A DNA stretch of 64,000 nt from Methanosarcina vacuolata Z-761. GTDB taxonomy: Archaea > Halobacteriota > Methanosarcinia > Methanosarcinales > Methanosarcinaceae. How positions within the stretch are numbered: the stretch's first letter is position 1; the number at the start of each line of letters is the position of its first letter. The notes under the pieces were generated by a model, which saw only the letters and a list, made by a program, of their open reading frames with translations, ran no database searches and was not told the origin of the DNA. This document shows, one piece after another, positions 39,187 to 48,337 of this stretch. Location: contig NZ_CP009520.1 of assembly GCF_000969905.1 (NCBI RefSeq), positions 3,162,001-3,226,000 of the forward strand, read 5' to 3'. A program made the translations under genes and the position numbers.

Positions 39187-40848
39187 ATGGCAGTCAGTAC
39201 TTCAACTCTAATCCTCCTTGTTGTTATCTACTTTACGTGCACCTTCTACGTTGCCCGGCTGGGGTATAAAAAAAATTCCCAGACTGATGGGTATATGCTT
39301 GCAGGCCGACGCGTACCCCCGGCAATTATGGCCCTCTCCTATGGAGCTGCGTTTATCAGCACTTCTGCAATTATAGGGTTCGGAGGAGTAGCCGCTTCCT
39401 TAGGAATGGGACTTCTGTGGCTTGTCTTCATGAATATCTTTTTCGGAATTTTCATTGCCTTCGTGGTTTTTGGCCCAGGGACCCGTCGCATGGGACTAAA
39501 CCTTGGAGCCATCACTTTCCCTGAATTTATAGGAAAACGCTTCCAGTCAAGGTTTATCCAAGCCTTTTCCGGGCTTCTTATAGCTGTTTTTATGCCGATC
39601 TACGCAGCAAGCGTGATTATAGGGGCAGGCCGATTTCTTGAGACCACTCTTGGGATAAACTATAACTTCGCTCTTCTGGTCTTTACTGTTATCATTGCTT
39701 TTTATGTGATTAAAGGTGGCCTTCTCTCAGTAATGTATGTGGACGCAATGCAAGCCACTATTATGTTGATAGGAATGACCTTTTTGCTGATATTTACTTA
39801 CAGCAAACTGGGAGGAGTCGTAGAAGCTCATCAGGCCCTTACCAATATGGCAAACCTTGTGCCTCAGGCGCTTGCTGACCAGGGACACAGGGGCTGGACT
39901 GCAATGCCAGCTTTCAATTCCCCAATCTGGTGGACAATGGTTTCCACAATTGTTATGGGAGTAGGGATAGGAGCACTTGCACAGCCACAACTTGCAGTCA
40001 GGTTCATGACTGTAAAGGACGACCGTTCCCTTAAAAGAGCAGTTGCCGTTGGGGGTCCCTTCCTTCTTATGATGGCAGGAGTCGCATATGTTGTAGGAGC
40101 TCTTTCTAACGTATACTTCTACAAGACTACAGGAAAGGTTGCCCTTCAGGTCGTCCCGGGTGGAAACACTGACCTTATAATTCCCGCATATCTGAACCAC
40201 GCAATGCCCGCGCTGTTTGTGGCAATATTCATGCTAAGCCTGCTTTCGGCAGCAATGTCTACTGCAGCTGCCCAGTTCCACACCATGGGTACGGCCATAG
40301 GGTACGACTTTTATCAGAACGGCCTTATGAAAGGCAAGTCCAGTTCGAGCACAGTCCATGTGACAAAAATAGGAATTGTCTTTACCATCATAGCAGCAGT
40401 TATTCTGGCTTACATTCTTCCTGTAAGTATTATCGCAAGAGCTACTGCCATGTTCATGGGACTGTGCACATCCGCTTTCCTGCCCCTCTACATTGGAGCC
40501 CTGTTCTGGAAACGTACAACAAAAGCCGGAGCAACTGCAAGTCTTGTTATAGGGTCGATAAGCAGTCTTTTCTGGCTGGTGTTTGTCCATGCAAAAGAAG
40601 CAGTGCCTCTGGGGATCTGCCAGGCAATTTTTGGAAAAGAAACATTACTTACAGGCACCTGGCCCCTTGTAGACCCGATTATGATCGCAACTCCACTGTC
40701 CTTCCTTGTCCTGATTGTAGTAAGCCTTATGACACCCCGGTTCTCTCCAGAGTTCCTCAAGAAGGCTTTCAGGCTCAGGTATGAAGATGAAGAAGAAGAA
40801 ACATCGGAAGCAACATCACACAGTGCAGCAGATTCGGCAGGCGTTTAA
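39187..40848 (+). CDS. Sodium:solute symporter (SSS family)
   Basis: The 553-residue integral membrane protein has about 13 TM helices of the LeuT-fold SSS family. The early motif YMLAGRRVPPAIMALSYGAA, the Na-site region TSAIIGFGGVAAS and the helix pair MLSLLSAAMSTAAAQFHTMG are typical. The C-terminus is acidic and cytoplasmic. The substrate is not evident; SSS proteins carry acetate, pantothenate, proline, sugars and others. The small accessory protein lies upstream. The gene converges on the larA cluster, so a hydroxy-acid substrate is tempting but only inferred. Confidence 0.92.
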   Translation: MAVSTSTLILLVVIYFTCTFYVARLGYKKNSQTDGYMLAGRRVPPAIMALSYGAAFISTSAIIGFGGVAASLGMGLLWLVFMNIFFGIFIAFVVFGPGTRRMGLNLGAITFPEFIGKRFQSRFIQAFSGLLIAVFMPIYAASVIIGAGRFLETTLGINYNFALLVFTVIIAFYVIKGGLLSVMYVDAMQATIMLIGMTFLLIFTYSKLGGVVEAHQALTNMANLVPQALADQGHRGWTAMPAFNSPIWWTMVSTIVMGVGIGALAQPQLAVRFMTVKDDRSLKRAVAVGGPFLLMMAGVAYVVGALSNVYFYKTTGKVALQVVPGGNTDLIIPAYLNHAMPALFVAIFMLSLLSAAMSTAAAQFHTMGTAIGYDFYQNGLMKGKSSSSTVHVTKIGIVFTIIAAVILAYILPVSIIARATAMFMGLCTSAFLPLYIGALFWKRTTKAGATASLVIGSISSLFWLVFVHAKEAVPLGICQAIFGKETLLTGTWPLVDPIMIATPLSFLVLIVVSLMTPRFSPEFLKKAFRLRYEDEEEETSEATSHSAADSAGV

Positions 40849-40914
40849 GCCTGCACCCACACTTTTCGGTTTTAATTCGGCTTCCTTAATATTCCCTTTA
40901 TTTTTATGAAATTA

Positions 40915-42183
40915 TCAGTTTTCTTTTCTAACAGGCAGGGTCTGCCCTCCATGAGGCATAAGGTGAATTTTTGCGTCAGGATTTTCCAAGAGCACTGCAG
41001 ACAAGGCATCCTCTGCACTTGCCATCGGAGTAAAGAATGCGTTTCTTGTTTGCTCGTTCGAAAGTTTTGAGACCAGGTAAAGCTTAAATCTCTTTGAAAT
41101 CCTTGCAATGATTGCTGTTTTATGCCCCCCGAACTCAAAACATTTTTTGAAACGTTCGATTGCTTCATCCGGGTTTTGACACTCCCTGTTCCAGCATTCA
41201 TAGACCTGGTTTCCTATCCCCTCAGCGCATTCGGCTACAAGGATGATGGAACCTCCTGCTTTCACAGCCTGAGTTGCATTATCAAGCGCCTTATTTGCCT
41301 GGAAGAGATTGATATCTTTAGGAAAGCCTCCGCAAGAAACAATTACCGCATCTGCTGGTTCTACAGGCACCTTATACATAGAATCCACAACTTCCACACC
41401 TTTTCTGTGTGCCTCGATAAAATCGCCTGCAACAGCAGTAACTATCTCTTTTTTGCTGTCAAGAACCACATTCAGGATAAAATCAAGGCCGAAAATTTTT
41501 GCAGCTTCTTCCATGTCCTGCCTGACAGGCCCATCAACCCTTCCGGAAACAGCTTTTTCATCAATCATCATTTTATGGTTTGTGAGAACTGTTTCTTTCG
41601 AGCTTACACCAGGCAGAACTGATTTTGCCCCTCCGCTGTATCCCGCATAGTAATGGAATTCGATGCTTCCGGTCCCTATAACAACATCAGCACCCATAAT
41701 GCCTTCAAATATCTCAATTGGGGTTCCACGGGAAGTTATGCCAATGCGTCTGCATCTGCCGGTATCATGCTGAATGCAACGAATTTTTTTGTAGACTTCT
41801 TCTCCAACCAGCTTTCTTGATTCCTCTTCGGTCTGGTTTCGGTGAAGCCCGAGTGCAAAGACAATAGTAATATTTTCGTCCTTTGCTCCTCCAAGGTAAA
41901 GCTCTTCAAGTAGAGGAGGAAGAAGCTTCGCAGTTGGAGTTGGACGTGTAACATCGCTTACAATAATTGCAATTCTCGAATCCGGGTTTACAATCTCAGA
42001 AAGCCTTTTTCTTTTAATGGGATTTTCAAGAGCTTTTTTAATTAAAGAAGTTGGATCTTCCTTTTTTTCAGGCTCTGAAGGCAGAATAATACTGGATATG
42101 TTTCTTTCCGGGATATCCAGCTCAAGTGCCATGCTTCCAAAAGCTAATGATGTTGTTTTTGTGTTTTCAATCATATTTGGCAC
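40915..42183 (-). CDS. larA: LarA-family nickel-pincer racemase/epimerase (paralogue 1)
   Basis: The 422-residue protein of the lactate racemase family uses the nickel-pincer nucleotide (NPN) cofactor to racemise 2-hydroxy acids. Visible hallmarks: SDVTRPTPTAKLLPPLLEEL, the catalytic His in ALGLHRNQT, the second His and the cofactor-binding Lys in IEFHYYAGYSGGAKSVLPG, a further His in TVLTNHKMM, and CGGFPKDINLFQANKALDNA in the C-terminal domain. It differs from paralogues 2 and 3 in the segment around the last His. The start may be GTG 42183 or ATG 42174. The cofactor genes larB/C/E are not in the window. The substrate may not be lactate. Confidence 0.88.
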   Translation of the reverse strand: MPNMIENTKTTSLAFGSMALELDIPERNISSIILPSEPEKKEDPTSLIKKALENPIKRKRLSEIVNPDSRIAIIVSDVTRPTPTAKLLPPLLEELYLGGAKDENITIVFALGLHRNQTEEESRKLVGEEVYKKIRCIQHDTGRCRRIGITSRGTPIEIFEGIMGADVVIGTGSIEFHYYAGYSGGAKSVLPGVSSKETVLTNHKMMIDEKAVSGRVDGPVRQDMEEAAKIFGLDFILNVVLDSKKEIVTAVAGDFIEAHRKGVEVVDSMYKVPVEPADAVIVSCGGFPKDINLFQANKALDNATQAVKAGGSIILVAECAEGIGNQVYECWNRECQNPDEAIERFKKCFEFGGHKTAIIARISKRFKLYLVSKLSNEQTRNAFFTPMASAEDALSAVLLENPDAKIHLMPHGGQTLPVRKEN

Positions 42184-42225
42184 TTCACTTGACCTTTTTT
42201 CGATATTTGTTTTTATAATTGTCTT

Positions 42226-42490
42226 CTTTTACAGCTATCATTTCATATCTGTCTTTACAGCTATCATTTCATATCTGTCTTTACAGCTATCATTTCATAT
42301 CTGTCTTTACAGCTATCATTTCATATCTGTCTTTACAGCTATCATTTCATATCTGTCTTTACAGCTATCATTTCATATCTGTCTTTTATAGCCATCTTCT
42401 CATAGCTGTCTTTTATAGCCATCTTCTCATAGCTGTCTTTTATAGCCATCTTCTCATAGCTGTTTTTTATAGCTGTTTTTTATAGCTGTC
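42226..42490. repeat. Tandem repeats (26-base and 27-base units) between larA genes
   Basis: Six copies of CTTTACAGCTATCATTTCAT+ATCTGT, then three copies of a related CTTTTATAGCCATCTTCTCA+TAGCTGT, then a shorter TTTTTATAGCTGT pair next to the stop of larA paralogue 2. The second unit looks like a diverged form of the first, so the array evolved in steps. Confidence 0.9.
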
Positions 42491-42493
42491 TTC

Positions 42494-43756
42494 TTACTTC
42501 ATTACAGGCAGAGTCCATCCGCCATTGGGCATAATATGGATTTTAGCATCAGAATTTTCGGAAAGAATATTTTCAAGCGCTTCTTCTACGCTTTTTACAG
42601 GAATAAAGAAAGTATTTCTGCTTTCCGTGTCCGGAAGTTTAGAGACAAGATAAAGTTTGAAGGTTTTTGCAGCCCTCCCAACAGTGGCAGCTTTGTGTCC
42701 CCCAAACTCAAAACATTTTCTGAATTTCTTTATTGCCTCATCTGGAGTTTTGTATTCTGTACTCCAGCGCTCATATACCTTATCCCCGATCCCTTCAGTA
42801 CATTCAGCCACAAGCACTATTGAGCCTCCTTTTTTTACGGCAAAAACTGCATTTTCAAGGGACTTTGTCGCCTGGAAAAGGTTAATGTCTTTTGGAAAGC
42901 CTCCGCACGAGACAATTGCTGCATCTGCAGGCTCTACAGGCACCTTGTACATGGAATCAACAACTTCTACGCCTTTCCTGTGAGCTTCGATGAAATCTCC
43001 AGCAACGGCAGCAACTATCTCTTTTTTGCTGTTAAGCACGACATTAAGGATAAAGTTAAGGCCCGCAATCCTTGCAGCTTCTTCTATATTTTGTCTTGCA
43101 GGACTGTCGGTTCTGCCTGAGAGAGGGTCACCTTCAAAGAGTTTGCTATAAAAACTATGATAAGAAAGAATAGATTTTTCCGAACTGACTCCCGGAAGAA
43201 CAGATTTCCCTCCTCCACTGTATCCAGCATAATAGTGAAATTCCAGGGTTCCTGTGCTTATGATAACGTCGGAGTCTGCTACTTCTTCAAAGACCTCTAC
43301 AGGCGTTCCGAAACTTGTCTCTCCGAGATGCCTGCACCTTTTCCTGTCGTGCTGGATGCAGCGAATTTTTTCGTAAACCTGCTCTCCAACCAGTTTTCGT
43401 GATTCCTCTTCAGTCTGGTTTCGATGGAGCCCGAGGGCAAAAACAATAGTAATATTTTCATCCTTTGCCCCTCCAAGATAAAGCTCTTCAAGCAGAGGAG
43501 GAAGAATCTTTGCAGTAGGAGTTGGCCGAGTAACATCACTAACTATGATTGCAACCTTCGAATCAGGGTTTACAATCTCAGAAAGCCGTCGGCTTTTTAT
43601 GGGATTTTCAAGCGCTTTTTTAACAAGGGAAGATCCTTCTTCCTTTATTTCAAACTCCGAAGGCAAAATAACACTGGCAAGATTTCTTTCAGGAATTTCA
43701 AACTCAATTCCCGTACTTCCAAAAGCAAGTGATATTTTTTTTATGTTTGCAGTCAT
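42494..43756 (-). CDS. larA: LarA-family nickel-pincer racemase/epimerase (paralogue 2)
   Basis: The 420-residue protein keeps all family residues: SDVTRPTPTAKILPPLLEEL, ALGLHRNQTEEESRK, LEFHYYAGYSGGGKSVLPGV, SILSYHSFYSKLFEGD and CGGFPKDINLFQATKSLENA. It is closer to paralogue 3 than to paralogue 1 in the loop after the cofactor lysine (FYSKLFEGDPLSGR). The ATG at 43756 is the only good start; the upstream bases (ACATCGGCATAAAC) resemble those before paralogue 3 (ACATCGGAATGACC), so the duplication included the leader. The 310-base gaps between these genes make a single operon possible but not certain. Confidence 0.88.
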   Translation of the reverse strand: MTANIKKISLAFGSTGIEFEIPERNLASVILPSEFEIKEEGSSLVKKALENPIKSRRLSEIVNPDSKVAIIVSDVTRPTPTAKILPPLLEELYLGGAKDENITIVFALGLHRNQTEEESRKLVGEQVYEKIRCIQHDRKRCRHLGETSFGTPVEVFEEVADSDVIISTGTLEFHYYAGYSGGGKSVLPGVSSEKSILSYHSFYSKLFEGDPLSGRTDSPARQNIEEAARIAGLNFILNVVLNSKKEIVAAVAGDFIEAHRKGVEVVDSMYKVPVEPADAAIVSCGGFPKDINLFQATKSLENAVFAVKKGGSIVLVAECTEGIGDKVYERWSTEYKTPDEAIKKFRKCFEFGGHKAATVGRAAKTFKLYLVSKLPDTESRNTFFIPVKSVEEALENILSENSDAKIHIMPNGGWTLPVMK

Positions 43757-43848
43757 GTTTATGCCGATGTTTTATCTTGATATTATTTTTCTTTTTATTA
43801 TTTTACAACAATAAGGTTAAACAAGTATAAAAAGAACTAGAAGACAGT

Positions 43849-44034
43849 TTCAAATGGCAAGGTAGTTTTAAATGAAAAAGTAGTTTTAAATGAAAAGGTA
43901 GTTTCAAATAAAAAGGTAGTTTTAAATGGAAACGCAGTTTCAAATGAAAAGGTAGTTTTAAATGAAAAGGTAGTTTCAAATGGAAAGGTAGTTTTAAATG
44001 AAAAGATGATTTCAAATGAAAAGGTAGTTTTAAA
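43849..44034. repeat. Tandem repeat, 18-base unit, about ten copies
   Basis: AGTTTTAAATGAAAAGGT with C/T and A/G variation, filling the gap between larA paralogues 2 and 3. On the minus strand it reads as CTTTTTCATTTAAAACTACC-type repeats. Confidence 0.9.
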
Positions 44035-44074
44035 GGCGGTTTACACCTTCATCTTTTTATCCATAGCACCTTTT

Positions 44075-45343
44075 TTATCGCCTTACAGGCAAAGTCCACC
44101 CACCATTTGGCATAACATGGATTTTAGCATCAGGATTTTCGGAAAGAACCTTTTCAAGTGCTTCATCTATACTTTTTGTCGGAATAAAAAAAGCGTTTCT
44201 ACTTTCCGTCTCTGGAAGTTTTGATACCAGATAAAGTTTGAATTCTTTTGCAGTCCTCCCGACAATAGCAGCTTTATGCCCGCCGAACTCAAACCGGTTC
44301 TTAAAACGTTTTACTGCATCTTCAGGAGCCCTGCATTCCCTGTTCCAGCACTCATAAACTTTGTTTCCTATTCCCTCAGAACATTCTGCTACAAGGATAA
44401 TTGAACCACCCCTTTTTACGGCAGAGGTAGCGTTTTCAAGGGATTTTGTTGCCTGGTAAAGATTGATATCCTTTGGAAATCCGCCGCAGGAAACAACTAC
44501 GGCATCCGCAGGCTCTACAGGTACTTTATACATGGCATCGACATACTCTGCACCTTTCCTGTGGGCTTCGATGAAATCGCCTGCCACGGCATCAACTATC
44601 TCTTTTTTGCTTTCAAGTACAACATTCAGGATAAAGTCAAGGCCTGCAATCCTTGCAGCTTCCTCTATATTCTTTCTTGCCGGGCTATCAGCTCTACCTG
44701 AAAGAGGATCTCCTTCAAAGAGTTTGCTATAAAAACTATGGAATGAGAGAATGGATTTTTCGGAACTTACCCCTGGAAGGATGGACTTTCCTCCTCCTCC
44801 GTATCCTGCATAATAGTGAAATTCCAGGGTTCCTGTACTTATGATAACGTCGGAGTCTACTACTTCTTCGAAAACCTCTACAGGCGTTCCGAAACTTGTC
44901 TCTCCGAGATGCCTGCACTTTTTCCTGTCGTGCTGGATACACCTTATTTTTTCAAAGATATCTTCTCCTACAAGCTGGCGGCACTCTTCTTCAGTTTGTA
45001 AACGATGAAGTCCGAGGGCAAAAACAATAGTGATATTCTCGTTTTTTGCTCCTCCAAGGTAAAGCTCTTCAAGTAGTGGAGGAAGAATTTTTGCAGTAGG
45101 AGTTGGCCGTGTAACATCGCTAACTATGATTGCAACCTTTGAGTCAGGGTTTACAATCTCAGAAAGCCGTTGACTGTTTATAGGATTTACAAGCGCTTTT
45201 TTAATAAGGGAAGTCCCTTCTTCCTTTATTTCTAATTCTGAAGGCAGGATGATTCTGGATAGGTTTTTCTCAGGTATATCAACCTCCAAAATCCCGCTTC
45301 CAAACGCAAGTGGAATCGTTTTTACATTCATAGTCATGGTCAT
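44075..45343 (-). CDS. larA: LarA-family nickel-pincer racemase/epimerase (paralogue 3)
   Basis: The 422-residue first gene of the cluster in the direction of transcription. Family residues are intact: SDVTRPTPTAKILPPLLEEL, ALGLHRLQTEEECRQ, LEFHYYAGYGGGGKSILPGV (the usual YSGG is YGGG here), SILSFHSFYSKLFEGD and CGGFPKDINLYQATKSLENA. ATG at 45343 or the one at 45337, which aligns with paralogue 2. A 1.09-kb gap upstream holds its promoter and cooS's. Three adjacent paralogues suggest distinct substrates or conditions. Confidence 0.88.
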   Translation of the reverse strand: MTMTMNVKTIPLAFGSGILEVDIPEKNLSRIILPSELEIKEEGTSLIKKALVNPINSQRLSEIVNPDSKVAIIVSDVTRPTPTAKILPPLLEELYLGGAKNENITIVFALGLHRLQTEEECRQLVGEDIFEKIRCIQHDRKKCRHLGETSFGTPVEVFEEVVDSDVIISTGTLEFHYYAGYGGGGKSILPGVSSEKSILSFHSFYSKLFEGDPLSGRADSPARKNIEEAARIAGLDFILNVVLESKKEIVDAVAGDFIEAHRKGAEYVDAMYKVPVEPADAVVVSCGGFPKDINLYQATKSLENATSAVKRGGSIILVAECSEGIGNKVYECWNRECRAPEDAVKRFKNRFEFGGHKAAIVGRTAKEFKLYLVSKLPETESRNAFFIPTKSIDEALEKVLSENPDAKIHVMPNGGWTLPVRR

Positions 45344-45713
45344 TCCGATGTCATAGTATTAATTATATAAAATCGTATAGGTAAACAATAGAGAATCAAG
45401 TTTTAAAAAAATCCGAACTGTCAGTTAATATTACTGTTATATTATAATTAGGTCAATTTAGTGTAATTAGTTTTTCTATTATATTTTGTTTCCGCTTCTT
45501 TTTTCCAGAAGCTTCAACGAAATTTTCGGTAACATTTGCAGTGTTTCATTTCCTGCTATTAATTTACACGCGGTTTTAAAACTTGGCAGGTGGTGCTTTT
45601 ACTCATCAATCCCATTCTAAAAACGATCAGATTTGCACATAATTAAGAATTTTAAAACCCGTTTCATAATCAGAAGATCAATTGACCATTAAAAATTAGA
45701 AATTCAAGGACAT

Positions 45714-45812
45714 AGTTCTGAGTTTTACGTAGTTCTGAGTTTTACGTAGTTCTAAGTTTTACGTAGTTCTAAGTTTTACGTAGTTCTAAGTTTTACGTAG
45801 TTCTGAGTTTTG
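45714..45812. repeat. Tandem repeat, 17-base unit, about six copies
   Basis: AGTTCTGAGTTTTACGT, with G/A variation at the eighth base, six copies in the larA-cooS gap. Confidence 0.9.
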
Positions 45813-46083
45813 GGATGAACTCACAATATCTGCTTTGTAATGCACATTCCAACTTTTGATACTTTTGTATAGTTTCAAAATCACAAAAATATAAGAATTA
45901 TTGTAATTTATTAGCAAGATAGCCAATATAAGATAAATATTGACCTATTTTTATAGTCATAGGAATGTTAGTTGTAATATGATGTCAATTGTAAGATATA
46001 CTTTTTCACATTTCAAAGCATTGAGTCCTAAAAAGTAAATATTTCCTGCACTGAATAATCACTGAGTATAATTAAAATAACGC

Positions 46084-46164
46084 GGACTAAAGTAATACAA
46101 ACTAAAGTAATATAAACTAAAGTAATCAAAAATAAAGTAATCAAAAATAAAGTAATCAAAAATA
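46084..46164. repeat. Tandem repeat, 15-base unit, about five copies
   Basis: AAACTAAAGTAATAC grading into AAAATAAAGTAATC; further isolated copies (CGAACTAAAGTACTAC) occur at 46288-46310. Confidence 0.85.
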
Positions 46165-46432
46165 GGTAGTGGGTTTGAATCATTGAAAACCGAAAGCGCA
46201 AGAATCTCTCAATATATTCATTAAATACGTGAGATGTACTCGCTTTTTCGGAATTGATCAATAACTCAGGGACACGACCCAAAAATAAAGTAATACGAAC
46301 TAAAGTACTACAAACCTGCATACCACCGATAATATATTTAAAAAACATTTAGATGTATAAGTGCCAGAAATAGCTTTTTTGGTGCTTAAGAAGAAGCCGG
46401 AGAAGGGAAATCATAATGGGGAAACGATTACA

Positions 46433-48337
46433 ATGGACAAAGAAAGAATTTCTTATCACGAATCTGTTCTGAATATGTACGAGCGGATAAAAAAAGATGG
46501 GATGACAAATGTCTGGGACCGCTACGAAGCCCAGGGTATGGGAGGAAATCCGGACAAAAGATGTGCTTTCTGTATGGGAGGAGTACGCTGCGACCTGTGT
46601 TCCAACGGACCATGCCGTTCGGATGCTGCGAAAGACAAAAGAGGAGTATGCGGAATCACTGCCGATGGTATGGCGATGCGGATGATGCTTCTCAGAAATG
46701 TAATGGGAGCTTCTACTTACCACTATCATACGGACCAGACCATCAGGACTTTGAAGGAAACTGCCAGAGGCAACACTCCTTACACAATAAGGGAACCTGA
46801 AAAGTTAAGGACGTTTGCAAGCCGGCTGGGGCTCAAAACCGAAGGGTCTGACTCAGAAGTTGCTCTTCGCCTCTGTGAGTTTGTAGAAAAGGAGTTTAAC
46901 AAACCTGCCTACGAACCGAGCCAGATTGTTGAGTTCCTCGCCCCTCCCGAAAGAAAAGAAAAGTGGAGAGCACTGGACATATTTCCAGGCGGAATCTACG
47001 GGGAGATGATGCTTTCCACAAGCTCCTGCCTGACAAATGTGGATGGGTATTATGCGAGCCTGGCACTAAAAGCCATGCGCCTGGGAATTGCAATGGGATA
47101 CCAGAGCCAGATTGTAAACGAATATTGCCAGGATATCCTTTTTGGAATTCCCAGTCCCCATACTATGAGGGTAGACCTCGGTGTACTTGATCCCGAGTAC
47201 GTGAATGTGCTCCCTAATGGACACGAACCATTTATCGGCTTTGCCATGGTCCAGCTTGCCCGAAAACCGGAATGGCAGGAGAAAGCAAAAACTGCAGGGG
47301 CAAAGGGCCTGAGGGTTATTGCCAGCATTGAAACAGGGCAGGAAATGATCCAGAGATGGGAGGAAGATAATGCTTTCTACGGATTTACCGGCAACTGGAT
47401 TTCCCAGGAAGCGGTATTTGCAAGCGGAAGTGTGGATCTCTTTGCAGCAGATATGAATTGTTCTCTTCCTGTTGCTCCCCTTTATGCCGAGAAATACAAT
47501 TTTAAACTCATGCCTGTGAGTGAGCTTGTGGCCTTTGAAGGCATAGAGGAACGCCTGAACTATAATCCCACCGAAGCCGAAAAGCAGGCAGCACAACTCC
47601 TGGATATGGCGATTGAAAATTTCAAAAAACGAAAAAGCTCGATAGAATCGGTTTCCAAGCTCCCTATGAAAGAAGCCGTGGTAGGCTTTTCAAATGAGAG
47701 CATCCTTGCAGCGCTTGGAGGCAGCTTTGATCCTCTCCTTGATGCTATAAAAAACGGAGCAATTAAAGGAATTGTGGGGATGGTGTCCTGTACTACCTTA
47801 AGGGACTACGGTCAGGATGTACACAGCGTTGCTGTAGTAAAAGAGCTGATCAAAAGAAATATCCTTGTTCTGTCCCTTGGTTGCGGGAATGGGGCCATGC
47901 AGGTGGCAGGCCTCTGTATCCCTGAAGCCAGAGAATTTGCAGGAGACAGTCTAAAAGCCGTATGCAAAGCCCTGGGCATCCCACCAGTACTCAGCTTTGG
48001 GACCTGTACTGACACGGGTAGGCTTGCCGACCTCCTCGGAGCCATCTCCGGAGCTCTAGGAGGAGTTCCAGTTCCGGATCTGCCGGTTGCGGCTGCAGCC
48101 CCTGAGTATATGGAACAAAAAGCCACAATAGATGCGATCTTTGCTCTGGCCCTCGGGCTCTATACTTATGTGAACCCGGTCCCGACAGTCACAGGCGCCC
48201 CGAATCTGGTCAAACTGCTTACCGAAGACTGCCGGGAAGTTACAGGCGGGGTCATGAATGTGGAAAAAGATGCAGTAAAAGCTGTTGATGGGATAGAACA
48301 ACATATCATGGAAAAGAGAAAAAAGCTTGGAATCTAA
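46433..48337 (+). CDS. cooS: CooS-type Ni-Fe carbon monoxide dehydrogenase, divergent C-cluster
   Basis: The 634-residue catalytic subunit family. The N-terminal Cys cluster for the D and B Fe-S clusters is intact (RCAFCMGGVRCDLCSNGPCR, later RGVCGI). The C-cluster His is in NGHEPFIG, and cysteines align in ADMNCSLPV, GMVSCTTLRDYG, LSLGCGNGAM and FGTCTDTGR. The block that in well-studied CooS reads GICCTGNE is ASIETGQE here, so the C-cluster Cys (Cys295 of the Carboxydothermus CODH-II numbering) is Glu. The conserved Lys in MEQKATID remains. ATG 46433 follows GGGGA; upstream codons to 46361 are unlikely coding. It is monocistronic, with no adjacent ferredoxin or CooC. Confidence 0.88.
   Translation: MDKERISYHESVLNMYERIKKDGMTNVWDRYEAQGMGGNPDKRCAFCMGGVRCDLCSNGPCRSDAAKDKRGVCGITADGMAMRMMLLRNVMGASTYHYHTDQTIRTLKETARGNTPYTIREPEKLRTFASRLGLKTEGSDSEVALRLCEFVEKEFNKPAYEPSQIVEFLAPPERKEKWRALDIFPGGIYGEMMLSTSSCLTNVDGYYASLALKAMRLGIAMGYQSQIVNEYCQDILFGIPSPHTMRVDLGVLDPEYVNVLPNGHEPFIGFAMVQLARKPEWQEKAKTAGAKGLRVIASIETGQEMIQRWEEDNAFYGFTGNWISQEAVFASGSVDLFAADMNCSLPVAPLYAEKYNFKLMPVSELVAFEGIEERLNYNPTEAEKQAAQLLDMAIENFKKRKSSIESVSKLPMKEAVVGFSNESILAALGGSFDPLLDAIKNGAIKGIVGMVSCTTLRDYGQDVHSVAVVKELIKRNILVLSLGCGNGAMQVAGLCIPEAREFAGDSLKAVCKALGIPPVLSFGTCTDTGRLADLLGAISGALGGVPVPDLPVAAAAPEYMEQKATIDAIFALALGLYTYVNPVPTVTGAPNLVKLLTEDCREVTGGVMNVEKDAVKAVDGIEQHIMEKRKKLGI

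Follow-up and report, generated by a model that had tools for sequence, protein, structure and literature searches.

A CooS-V-type (group D-1) protein of Methanosarcina vacuolata Z-761 with a predicted hybrid cluster and, elsewhere in its group, possible partners in common with hybrid cluster protein

CooS-V of Carboxydothermus hydrogenoformans (PDB 7b7q, 7b7t, 7b95, 7b97 and 7b9a) is the nearest solved homologue of the protein described here. According to Jeoung et al. 2022 (PMC9311411), CooS-V has one Cys-to-Glu exchange and a Ni-free [4Fe-3S-nO] hybrid cluster, gives no Ni signal, and its cluster rearranges with the redox state. In the same work, CooS-V neither oxidizes CO nor reduces CO2, NO reduction is undetected, NH2OH is reduced very slowly (kcat 0.13 per s), and the midpoint potentials are approximately 300 mV lower than those of hybrid cluster protein (HCP); the CODH-II variant C295E is quoted there as Ni-poor and CO-inactive. 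Structural group D-1, the CooS-V type, was defined by Inoue et al. 2019 (PMC6344411) by exactly the residues found in the present protein. That paper names M. acetivorans in connection with D-1 and cites M. acetivorans genetics as suggesting CO involvement. The eLife survey by Bohm and Land 2026 (PMC13056359) describes 64% of clade D genes as solitary and transcriptional regulators as the only neighbour trend, with redox sensing suggested; clade D co-occurs most with HCP, for reasons called unclear, and is set aside. Another 2026 survey (PMC13240472) drops Glu295 sequences as non-CODH by a Cys295 rule. For HCP, Rodionov et al. 2005 (PMC1274295) describe operons of hcp with frdX and place NsrR, a regulator of the Rrf2 family, in the defence against nitrosative stress.

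Because group D-1 was already defined and CooS-V already solved, the M. vacuolata protein belongs to a kind already described in print. What is new here is the comparative context, namely the loss of the CooF partner and the partners common to D-1 and HCP; we found no paper in the open-licence literature that reports such sharing of HCP partners by D-1. Databases and curated models still label D-1 proteins as CO dehydrogenases, and annotation-based counts of CO-using microbes are therefore inflated.

Cluster ligands and fold of the Methanosarcina protein

We analyzed a 64,000-nucleotide stretch (the window) of the genome of M. vacuolata Z-761 (G000; 4.56 Mb, two contigs). Besides the D-1 protein, this genome encodes HCP, CdhA and a canonical CooS (G000:C2:2931693-2933516, L002) with 37% identity to the D-1 protein. 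The open reading frame had been delimited correctly in the original prediction: its ATG gives the full-length product, and this start is kept in 18 of 18 aligned sequences (the window copy and 17 orthologues). Features of the locus are collected in Table 1.

Table 1. Features of the D-1 locus, in window coordinates
Feature	Coordinates	Strand	Remarks
Three LarA-like genes in tandem (lactate racemase family), next to a gene for a sodium:solute symporter	39187-45343	-	
17-base tandem repeat, unit like ACGTAGTTCTAAGTTTT	45693-45828		
Upstream element, AGTAAATATTTCCT	46034..46047	+	399 bases before start
15-base direct repeats	46085-46159, 46283-46312		
Dispersed repeat copy, ~120 bases	46163..46279	.	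Between the AGTAAATATTTCCT element and the start codon
cooS-like gene, structural group D-1 (CooS-V type)	46433..48337	+	634 aa; sequence, signature residues, tree
Cys44-x2-Cys47, type III D-cluster	46562..46573	+	Alignment
Cys53, Cys56, Cys61, Cys73, B-cluster [4Fe-4S] ligands	46589..46651	+	All pair with CooS-V
Tyr96, at site of CODH acid-base His	46718..46720	+	Alignments
His264, cluster His	47222..47224	+	Pairs with CooS-V His259
Glu300, codon GAA, block ASIETGQE	47330..47332	+	Pairs with CooS-V Glu295 = CODH-II Cys295
Cys343	47459..47461	+	Pairs with CooS-V Cys338; preceding residue Asn342
Cys453	47789..47791	+	Pairs with CooS-V Cys449
Cys484	47882..47884	+	Pairs with CooS-V Cys480
Cys525	48005..48007	+	Pairs with CooS-V Cys521
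Glu561, HCP-type cluster Glu	48113..48115	+	Pairs with CooS-V Glu556; Ser/Thr in canonical CooS

Residues were paired by the phmmer alignment of a PDB search, in which 7b7q was the top match (677.7 bits; runner-up 390.9) and the identity to CooS-V was 52% over 624 aligned residues. The claim that a Glu stands at the place of CODH-II Cys295 was borne out, since Glu300 pairs exactly with its CooS-V counterpart. The only cysteines without a partner in CooS-V are 148, 232 and 600, so that no other Cys can occupy the Glu300 place, an outcome that had been named as refuting the claim. It had also been stated that all Fe-S cysteines of the B- and D-clusters, the cluster His and four further cluster cysteines align. 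This held for the B-cluster cysteines, His264 and Cys343, Cys453, Cys484 and Cys525. The D-cluster cysteines pair with those of CooS-V, but as a CxxC pair of Inoue type III they do not simply match well-studied CODHs. The CooS-V partner of Cys525 is the persulfide Cys (PMC9311411).

The original prediction had missed three further exchanges: Tyr96 replaces the acid-base His, Glu561 the canonical Ser/Thr, and Cys47 a Gly, the Gly41-to-Cys change of group D-1. In addition, Asn342 pairs with CooS-V Asn337, where canonical CooS has Gln, and Lys563, two residues behind Glu561, pairs with CooS-V Lys558. L002, the canonical CooS of G000, belongs to the same fold family but carries Cys at 300, His at 96, Gln at 342, Ser at 561 and Gly at 47. 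All eight residues of the D-1 signature were found in the alignment, together with the HCP-type Glu561 and the CxxC D-cluster. Relative to the description of D-1 in Inoue 2019 (H-E-C-C-C-C, Tyr, Lys, type III D-cluster and the extra HCP Glu), nothing in the sequence differs. The five cluster Cys and one His of Ni,Fe CODHs are not all present, Cys295 being replaced by Glu300, and Tyr96 stands where clades A, B, E and F have their acid-base His; Tyr at this place is also given for clades C and D-3/D-4 in PMC6344411. The Cys-to-Glu observation is confirmed, and its interpretation, though supported, had been published for this group before. CooS-V and the window protein have in common every hybrid-cluster ligand, the B-cluster, the CxxC D-cluster and a stand-alone gene; they differ in that the window protein is archaeal and falls in a 106-row archaeal/bacterial subclade apart from the CooS-V branch.

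An AlphaFold2 model of the D-1 protein (22 sequences; mean pLDDT 90.4, pTM 0.92) superposed best on 7b7q (Z 56.6), where 625 of the 629 residues aligned at 1.5 A. True CODHs matched the model at Z 46-56, the best of them within approximately 1 Z unit of 7b7q, so that the fold alone cannot discriminate between the two. The superposition reports ranges and not residue pairs, and the residue-level pairing is therefore that of the sequence alignment, at 52% identity. Class III HCP matched at Z 29.0. The D-1 protein resembles HCP in its cluster ligand set, including the Glu, and in certain neighbour genes (ferredoxin, cupins), but its predicted fold is much nearer to CODH and its score with TIGR01703 (HCP, hydroxylamine reductase) was 37.6 bits, far under the cut-off of 360.8. 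By analogy with CooS-V, from which both the cluster type and the inactivity towards CO are taken, the protein almost certainly holds a hybrid cluster and is not a CO enzyme. This agrees with the expectation of a changed cluster and of a reaction other than CO oxidation, both shown for CooS-V.

Conservation and distribution of group D-1

Relatives were taken from 80 of 391 confirmed genome-contig loci and, within the phylum of the window (Halobacteriota), from whole genomes. Among the 169 fetched relatives, duplicates included, residue 300 was Glu in 153, Cys in 15 and Asp in one. Identity to the window protein was 49-100% for the Glu relatives, 34-38% for the Cys relatives and 46% for the Asp relative (L153). 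A quick LG+G4 tree with SH-aLRT support only was computed from 142 of 171 rows, after removal of near-copies, of short rows and of roughly half of L114-L134. In this tree, 127 Glu rows together with CooS-V formed one side of a branch with an SH-aLRT of 100; the Cys rows formed another side, and the Asp row joined the Glu side at its base. Conservation of the Glu in its clade and the placement of the protein had been left to be checked, and these results indicate a conserved Glu and a position in the same clade as CooS-V.

Proteins approximately 73-78% identical to the window protein were found in records titled Lokiarchaeota, Bathyarchaeota, Thermoplasmata, WOR-3, Chloroflexi, Actinomycetota and Deltaproteobacteria; most of these are metagenome bins and possibly mis-sorted. 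Since the phyla are mixed in the tree, the spread of D-1 across phyla is most simply explained by extensive gene transfer.

The Asp protein (L153/L235, G058:C3:80912-82777) carries the block GSMDTGQE, with Asp at the Cys295 place, and Gly at the second D-cluster Cys. The remaining D-1 hybrid signature is kept, and the protein lies at the base of the Glu clade. An Asp-type group is absent from Table 2 of Inoue et al. (PMC6344411). This protein is perhaps a natural step between the Cys and Glu enzymes.

Within Methanosarcina, 16 of 30 genomes carry a full-length orthologue with 87-100% identity, 13 lack it, and one (G027) has it split. Two D-1 copies, in G051 and G144, have an in-frame stop. Such absences, the split gene and the stops would fit a decaying paralogue without function. 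We regard this explanation as extremely improbable, because the ligands are invariant in the 16 genomes of the genus and across phyla down to 49% identity, and the window reading frame is intact with a conserved start.

The copy L159 (G051:C1:1841650-1843551, Methanosarcinaceae) carries a TAG codon in frame at position 86, where Leu is conserved, and represents either pyrrolysine read-through or a broken gene.

Electron partners, neighbouring genes and proposed function

Both genes flanking D-1 in the window lie on the opposite strand, a LarA-like gene upstream and a gene of metallo-beta-lactamase fold downstream (Pfam scan). No CooF-like gene was found in the 22 kb searched around D-1, in agreement with the description of the gene as monocistronic and without ferredoxin; CooC was judged solely from the Pfam scan of ten neighbouring genes. 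A CooF-type electron partner nearby is usual for Ni,Fe CODHs, although it does not strictly define them. The same ten-gene scan revealed neither of the neighbours published for D-1, a COG1063 dehydrogenase and HypA/HypB.

The CooF-like protein adjoining the canonical CooS of genome G001 was used as a query. Of the 22 canonical CooS loci, 16 had a CooF-like ferredoxin nearby, versus 1 of 38 D-1 loci. Matches were obtained for none of 19 close and one of 19 distant D-1 loci, the latter 25% identical and more than 4 kb off. In G000, a CooF-like gene adjoins the canonical gene and not D-1. In G001 (loci L280 and L281), the canonical CooS is followed by the CooF-like ferredoxin, and the D-1 copy stands alone. 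G001 is probably M. acetivorans C2A. The M. acetivorans genetics behind the suggested CO role are reportedly those of Rother 2007. As the CooF-linked CooS of G001 is the canonical one, the canonical gene accounts for the CO phenotype, provided that both genes were deleted. L280 and L281 have a bearing on these published genetics only if M. acetivorans is indeed the source of G001.

This reading of the double deletion weighs against D-1 being a low-activity CO dehydrogenase or CO2 reductase that aids growth on CO, which we consider very unlikely. The loss of Cys295 and of the acid-base His argues in the same direction, as do the inactivity of CooS-V and of the Ni-poor C295E variant, both as given in PMC9311411, and the finding that A. 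fulgidus CooS AF1849, a possible D-1 member, is not CO-regulated (PMC4543118). In favour of a CO enzyme are the score of 748.6 bits with the CODH model TIGR01702, which passes the curated cut-off of 478, and the M. acetivorans genetics as quoted in PMC6344411.

To describe the neighbours of D-1 more widely, we used 80 loci from many phyla (80 of 391 confirmed; six from Methanosarcina), a set without a matched control, and a crude gene finder that retains certain false small ORFs. A 2[4Fe-4S] protein of approximately 260-262 aa occurred in 18 of the 80 loci, in 15 of them within 600 bp, all on the same strand. Rrf2 regulators were present in nine loci, six within 600 bp, and seven of the nine show a three-Cys pattern. 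One cupin family was found in eight loci and another in four, and 24 of the 80 loci contained at least one of the ferredoxin and the two cupins. FMN reductases (11 loci), FprA (five), desulfoferrodoxin (four) and a rubredoxin-reductase-like protein (four) were also observed.

In the Lokiarchaeota loci L105, L108, L112 and L113, D-1 lies a few genes from desulfoferrodoxin, FprA flavodiiron protein and a rubredoxin reductase-like protein. A ferredoxin and cupins occur in these loci too, not all genes in each. The arrangement looks like an O2/NO defence island.

Some of these genes also accompany HCP. The ferredoxin family had 74 listed places in 69 of 392 Halobacteriota genomes, and at least 11 of these were within 3.5 kb of HCP and at least three within 3.5 kb of D-1; the count compared 37 HCP and 26 D-1 places, and 11 of 74 is a lower bound. 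Two further HCP-ferredoxin neighbours were seen directly, one of them in the order HCP-cupin-ferredoxin. We also compared 6-kb contexts, hand-picked, mostly one per genus, among the matches listed. In these sets, ferredoxin or cupin markers were found within 6 kb of 8 of 20 HCP, 6 of 36 D-1 and none of 20 canonical CooS loci. Relative to the canonical loci of the phylum, Fisher's test gave p 0.003 for HCP and p 0.078 for D-1, the latter not significant.

In G000, HCP is followed by the second cupin. The D-1 gene of G183, a genome from the same taxonomic family, encodes a protein 87% identical to that of the window, and the second cupin precedes it by 145 bases on the same strand (L207). The cupin was rejected as an HCP-specific marker: it occurs in 28 of 30 Methanosarcina genomes, mostly in 1 to 3 copies, and one of the two copies in G000 is near neither HCP nor D-1. 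The 260-262-aa ferredoxin was not found in the 30 Methanosarcina genomes (E 1e-20) and therefore cannot be invoked as a partner in Methanosarcina.

Across the 392 Halobacteriota genomes, 40 carried both D-1 and HCP, 61 D-1 only and 87 HCP only (p 0.084). Complementarity of the two was rejected in the absence of a significant relation, and replacement of one by the other is not claimed. D-1 was present and HCP not found in many lineages, for example in 23 of the sampled f8 genomes with D-1.

We consider it reasonably probable that the D-1 (CooS-V-type) protein is an HCP-like small-molecule reductase, most likely with a role in nitrosative or oxidative stress. A homodimeric protein of the CooS-V type, it would not be a CO dehydrogenase. 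Electrons from a low-potential donor would pass through a bridging 2Fe-2S D-cluster (Cys44/Cys47) to the 4Fe-4S B-cluster (Cys53/56/61/73), and from there to a hybrid Fe/S/O cluster that contains no Ni and has His264, Glu300, Cys343, Cys453, Cys484, Cys525 and Glu561 as ligands. This cluster would open when reduced and then reduce a small molecule. Its most likely job, in line with proposals for HCP, is removal of NO or of another reactive species of nitrogen or oxygen. Our direct observations concern the sequence, its conservation and the predicted fold. The stress role is favoured because of the neighbours of D-1 in other genomes (ferredoxin, cupins, Rrf2 and O2/NO-defence genes). Several findings speak against it: in CooS-V, NO reduction is undetected and NH2OH reduction slow; the excess of HCP partners at D-1 loci reached only p 0.078; none of the HCP-type partner genes lies beside the Methanosarcina D-1 gene; the cupin also occurs away from HCP; and the D-1/HCP relation gave p 0.084.

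Slow turnover of CooS-V and its low midpoint potentials (PMC9311411) would also suit a hybrid-cluster redox or gas sensor or regulator, as opposed to a bulk detoxifying enzyme. The Rrf2 regulators beside 9 of the 80 D-1 loci are consistent with such a function, as is the link of clade D with transcriptional regulators, for which redox sensing is suggested in PMC13056359. The ferredoxin-like proteins encoded on the same strand within 600 bp of D-1 point instead to electron supply and turnover, and no signalling domain was detected in the D-1 protein by profile search and structure comparison. We judge a sensor unlikely and retain the small-molecule reductase as the preferred reading.

More tentatively, and with some doubt, D-1 may be a second, CODH-derived hybrid-cluster system that is plugged into the HCP stress module and has spread by gene transfer across archaeal and bacterial phyla. 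The module would possibly comprise the ferredoxin and the cupins as partners, control by Rrf2 regulators of the Fe-S type, and the Lokiarchaeota cluster of flavodiiron protein, desulfoferrodoxin and rubredoxin reductase-like protein. The partners shared with HCP and the loss of CooF provide testable candidates for the role of D-1. Methanosarcina is genetically tractable, and one cell can carry D-1, canonical CooS and HCP.

A perchlorate transcriptome of M. barkeri (PMC8196204) reports a small rise of 'cooS' without specifying the copy and was therefore set aside.

Upstream DNA and flanking genes

Upstream of D-1, on the other strand, the window contains three LarA-like genes and a sodium-symporter-family gene (Table 1); downstream, a DUF2117 gene lies beyond the gene of metallo-beta-lactamase fold. 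The order LarA, D-1, metallo-beta-lactamase recurs in other Methanosarcina.

The upstream element has the form [AT]GTAAATA[AT][TC]TCCT in 9 of the 10 other Methanosarcina upstream regions searched, at 158-206 bases before the start; it was not found in that of L006. The element may be the promoter. The dispersed repeat has eight other copies in G000 with 90-100% identity, and its presence shifts the conserved element from about -160/-200 to -399. The 15-base direct repeats adjoin this dispersed repeat, and the 17-base tandem repeat lies between the LarA-like and CooS genes.
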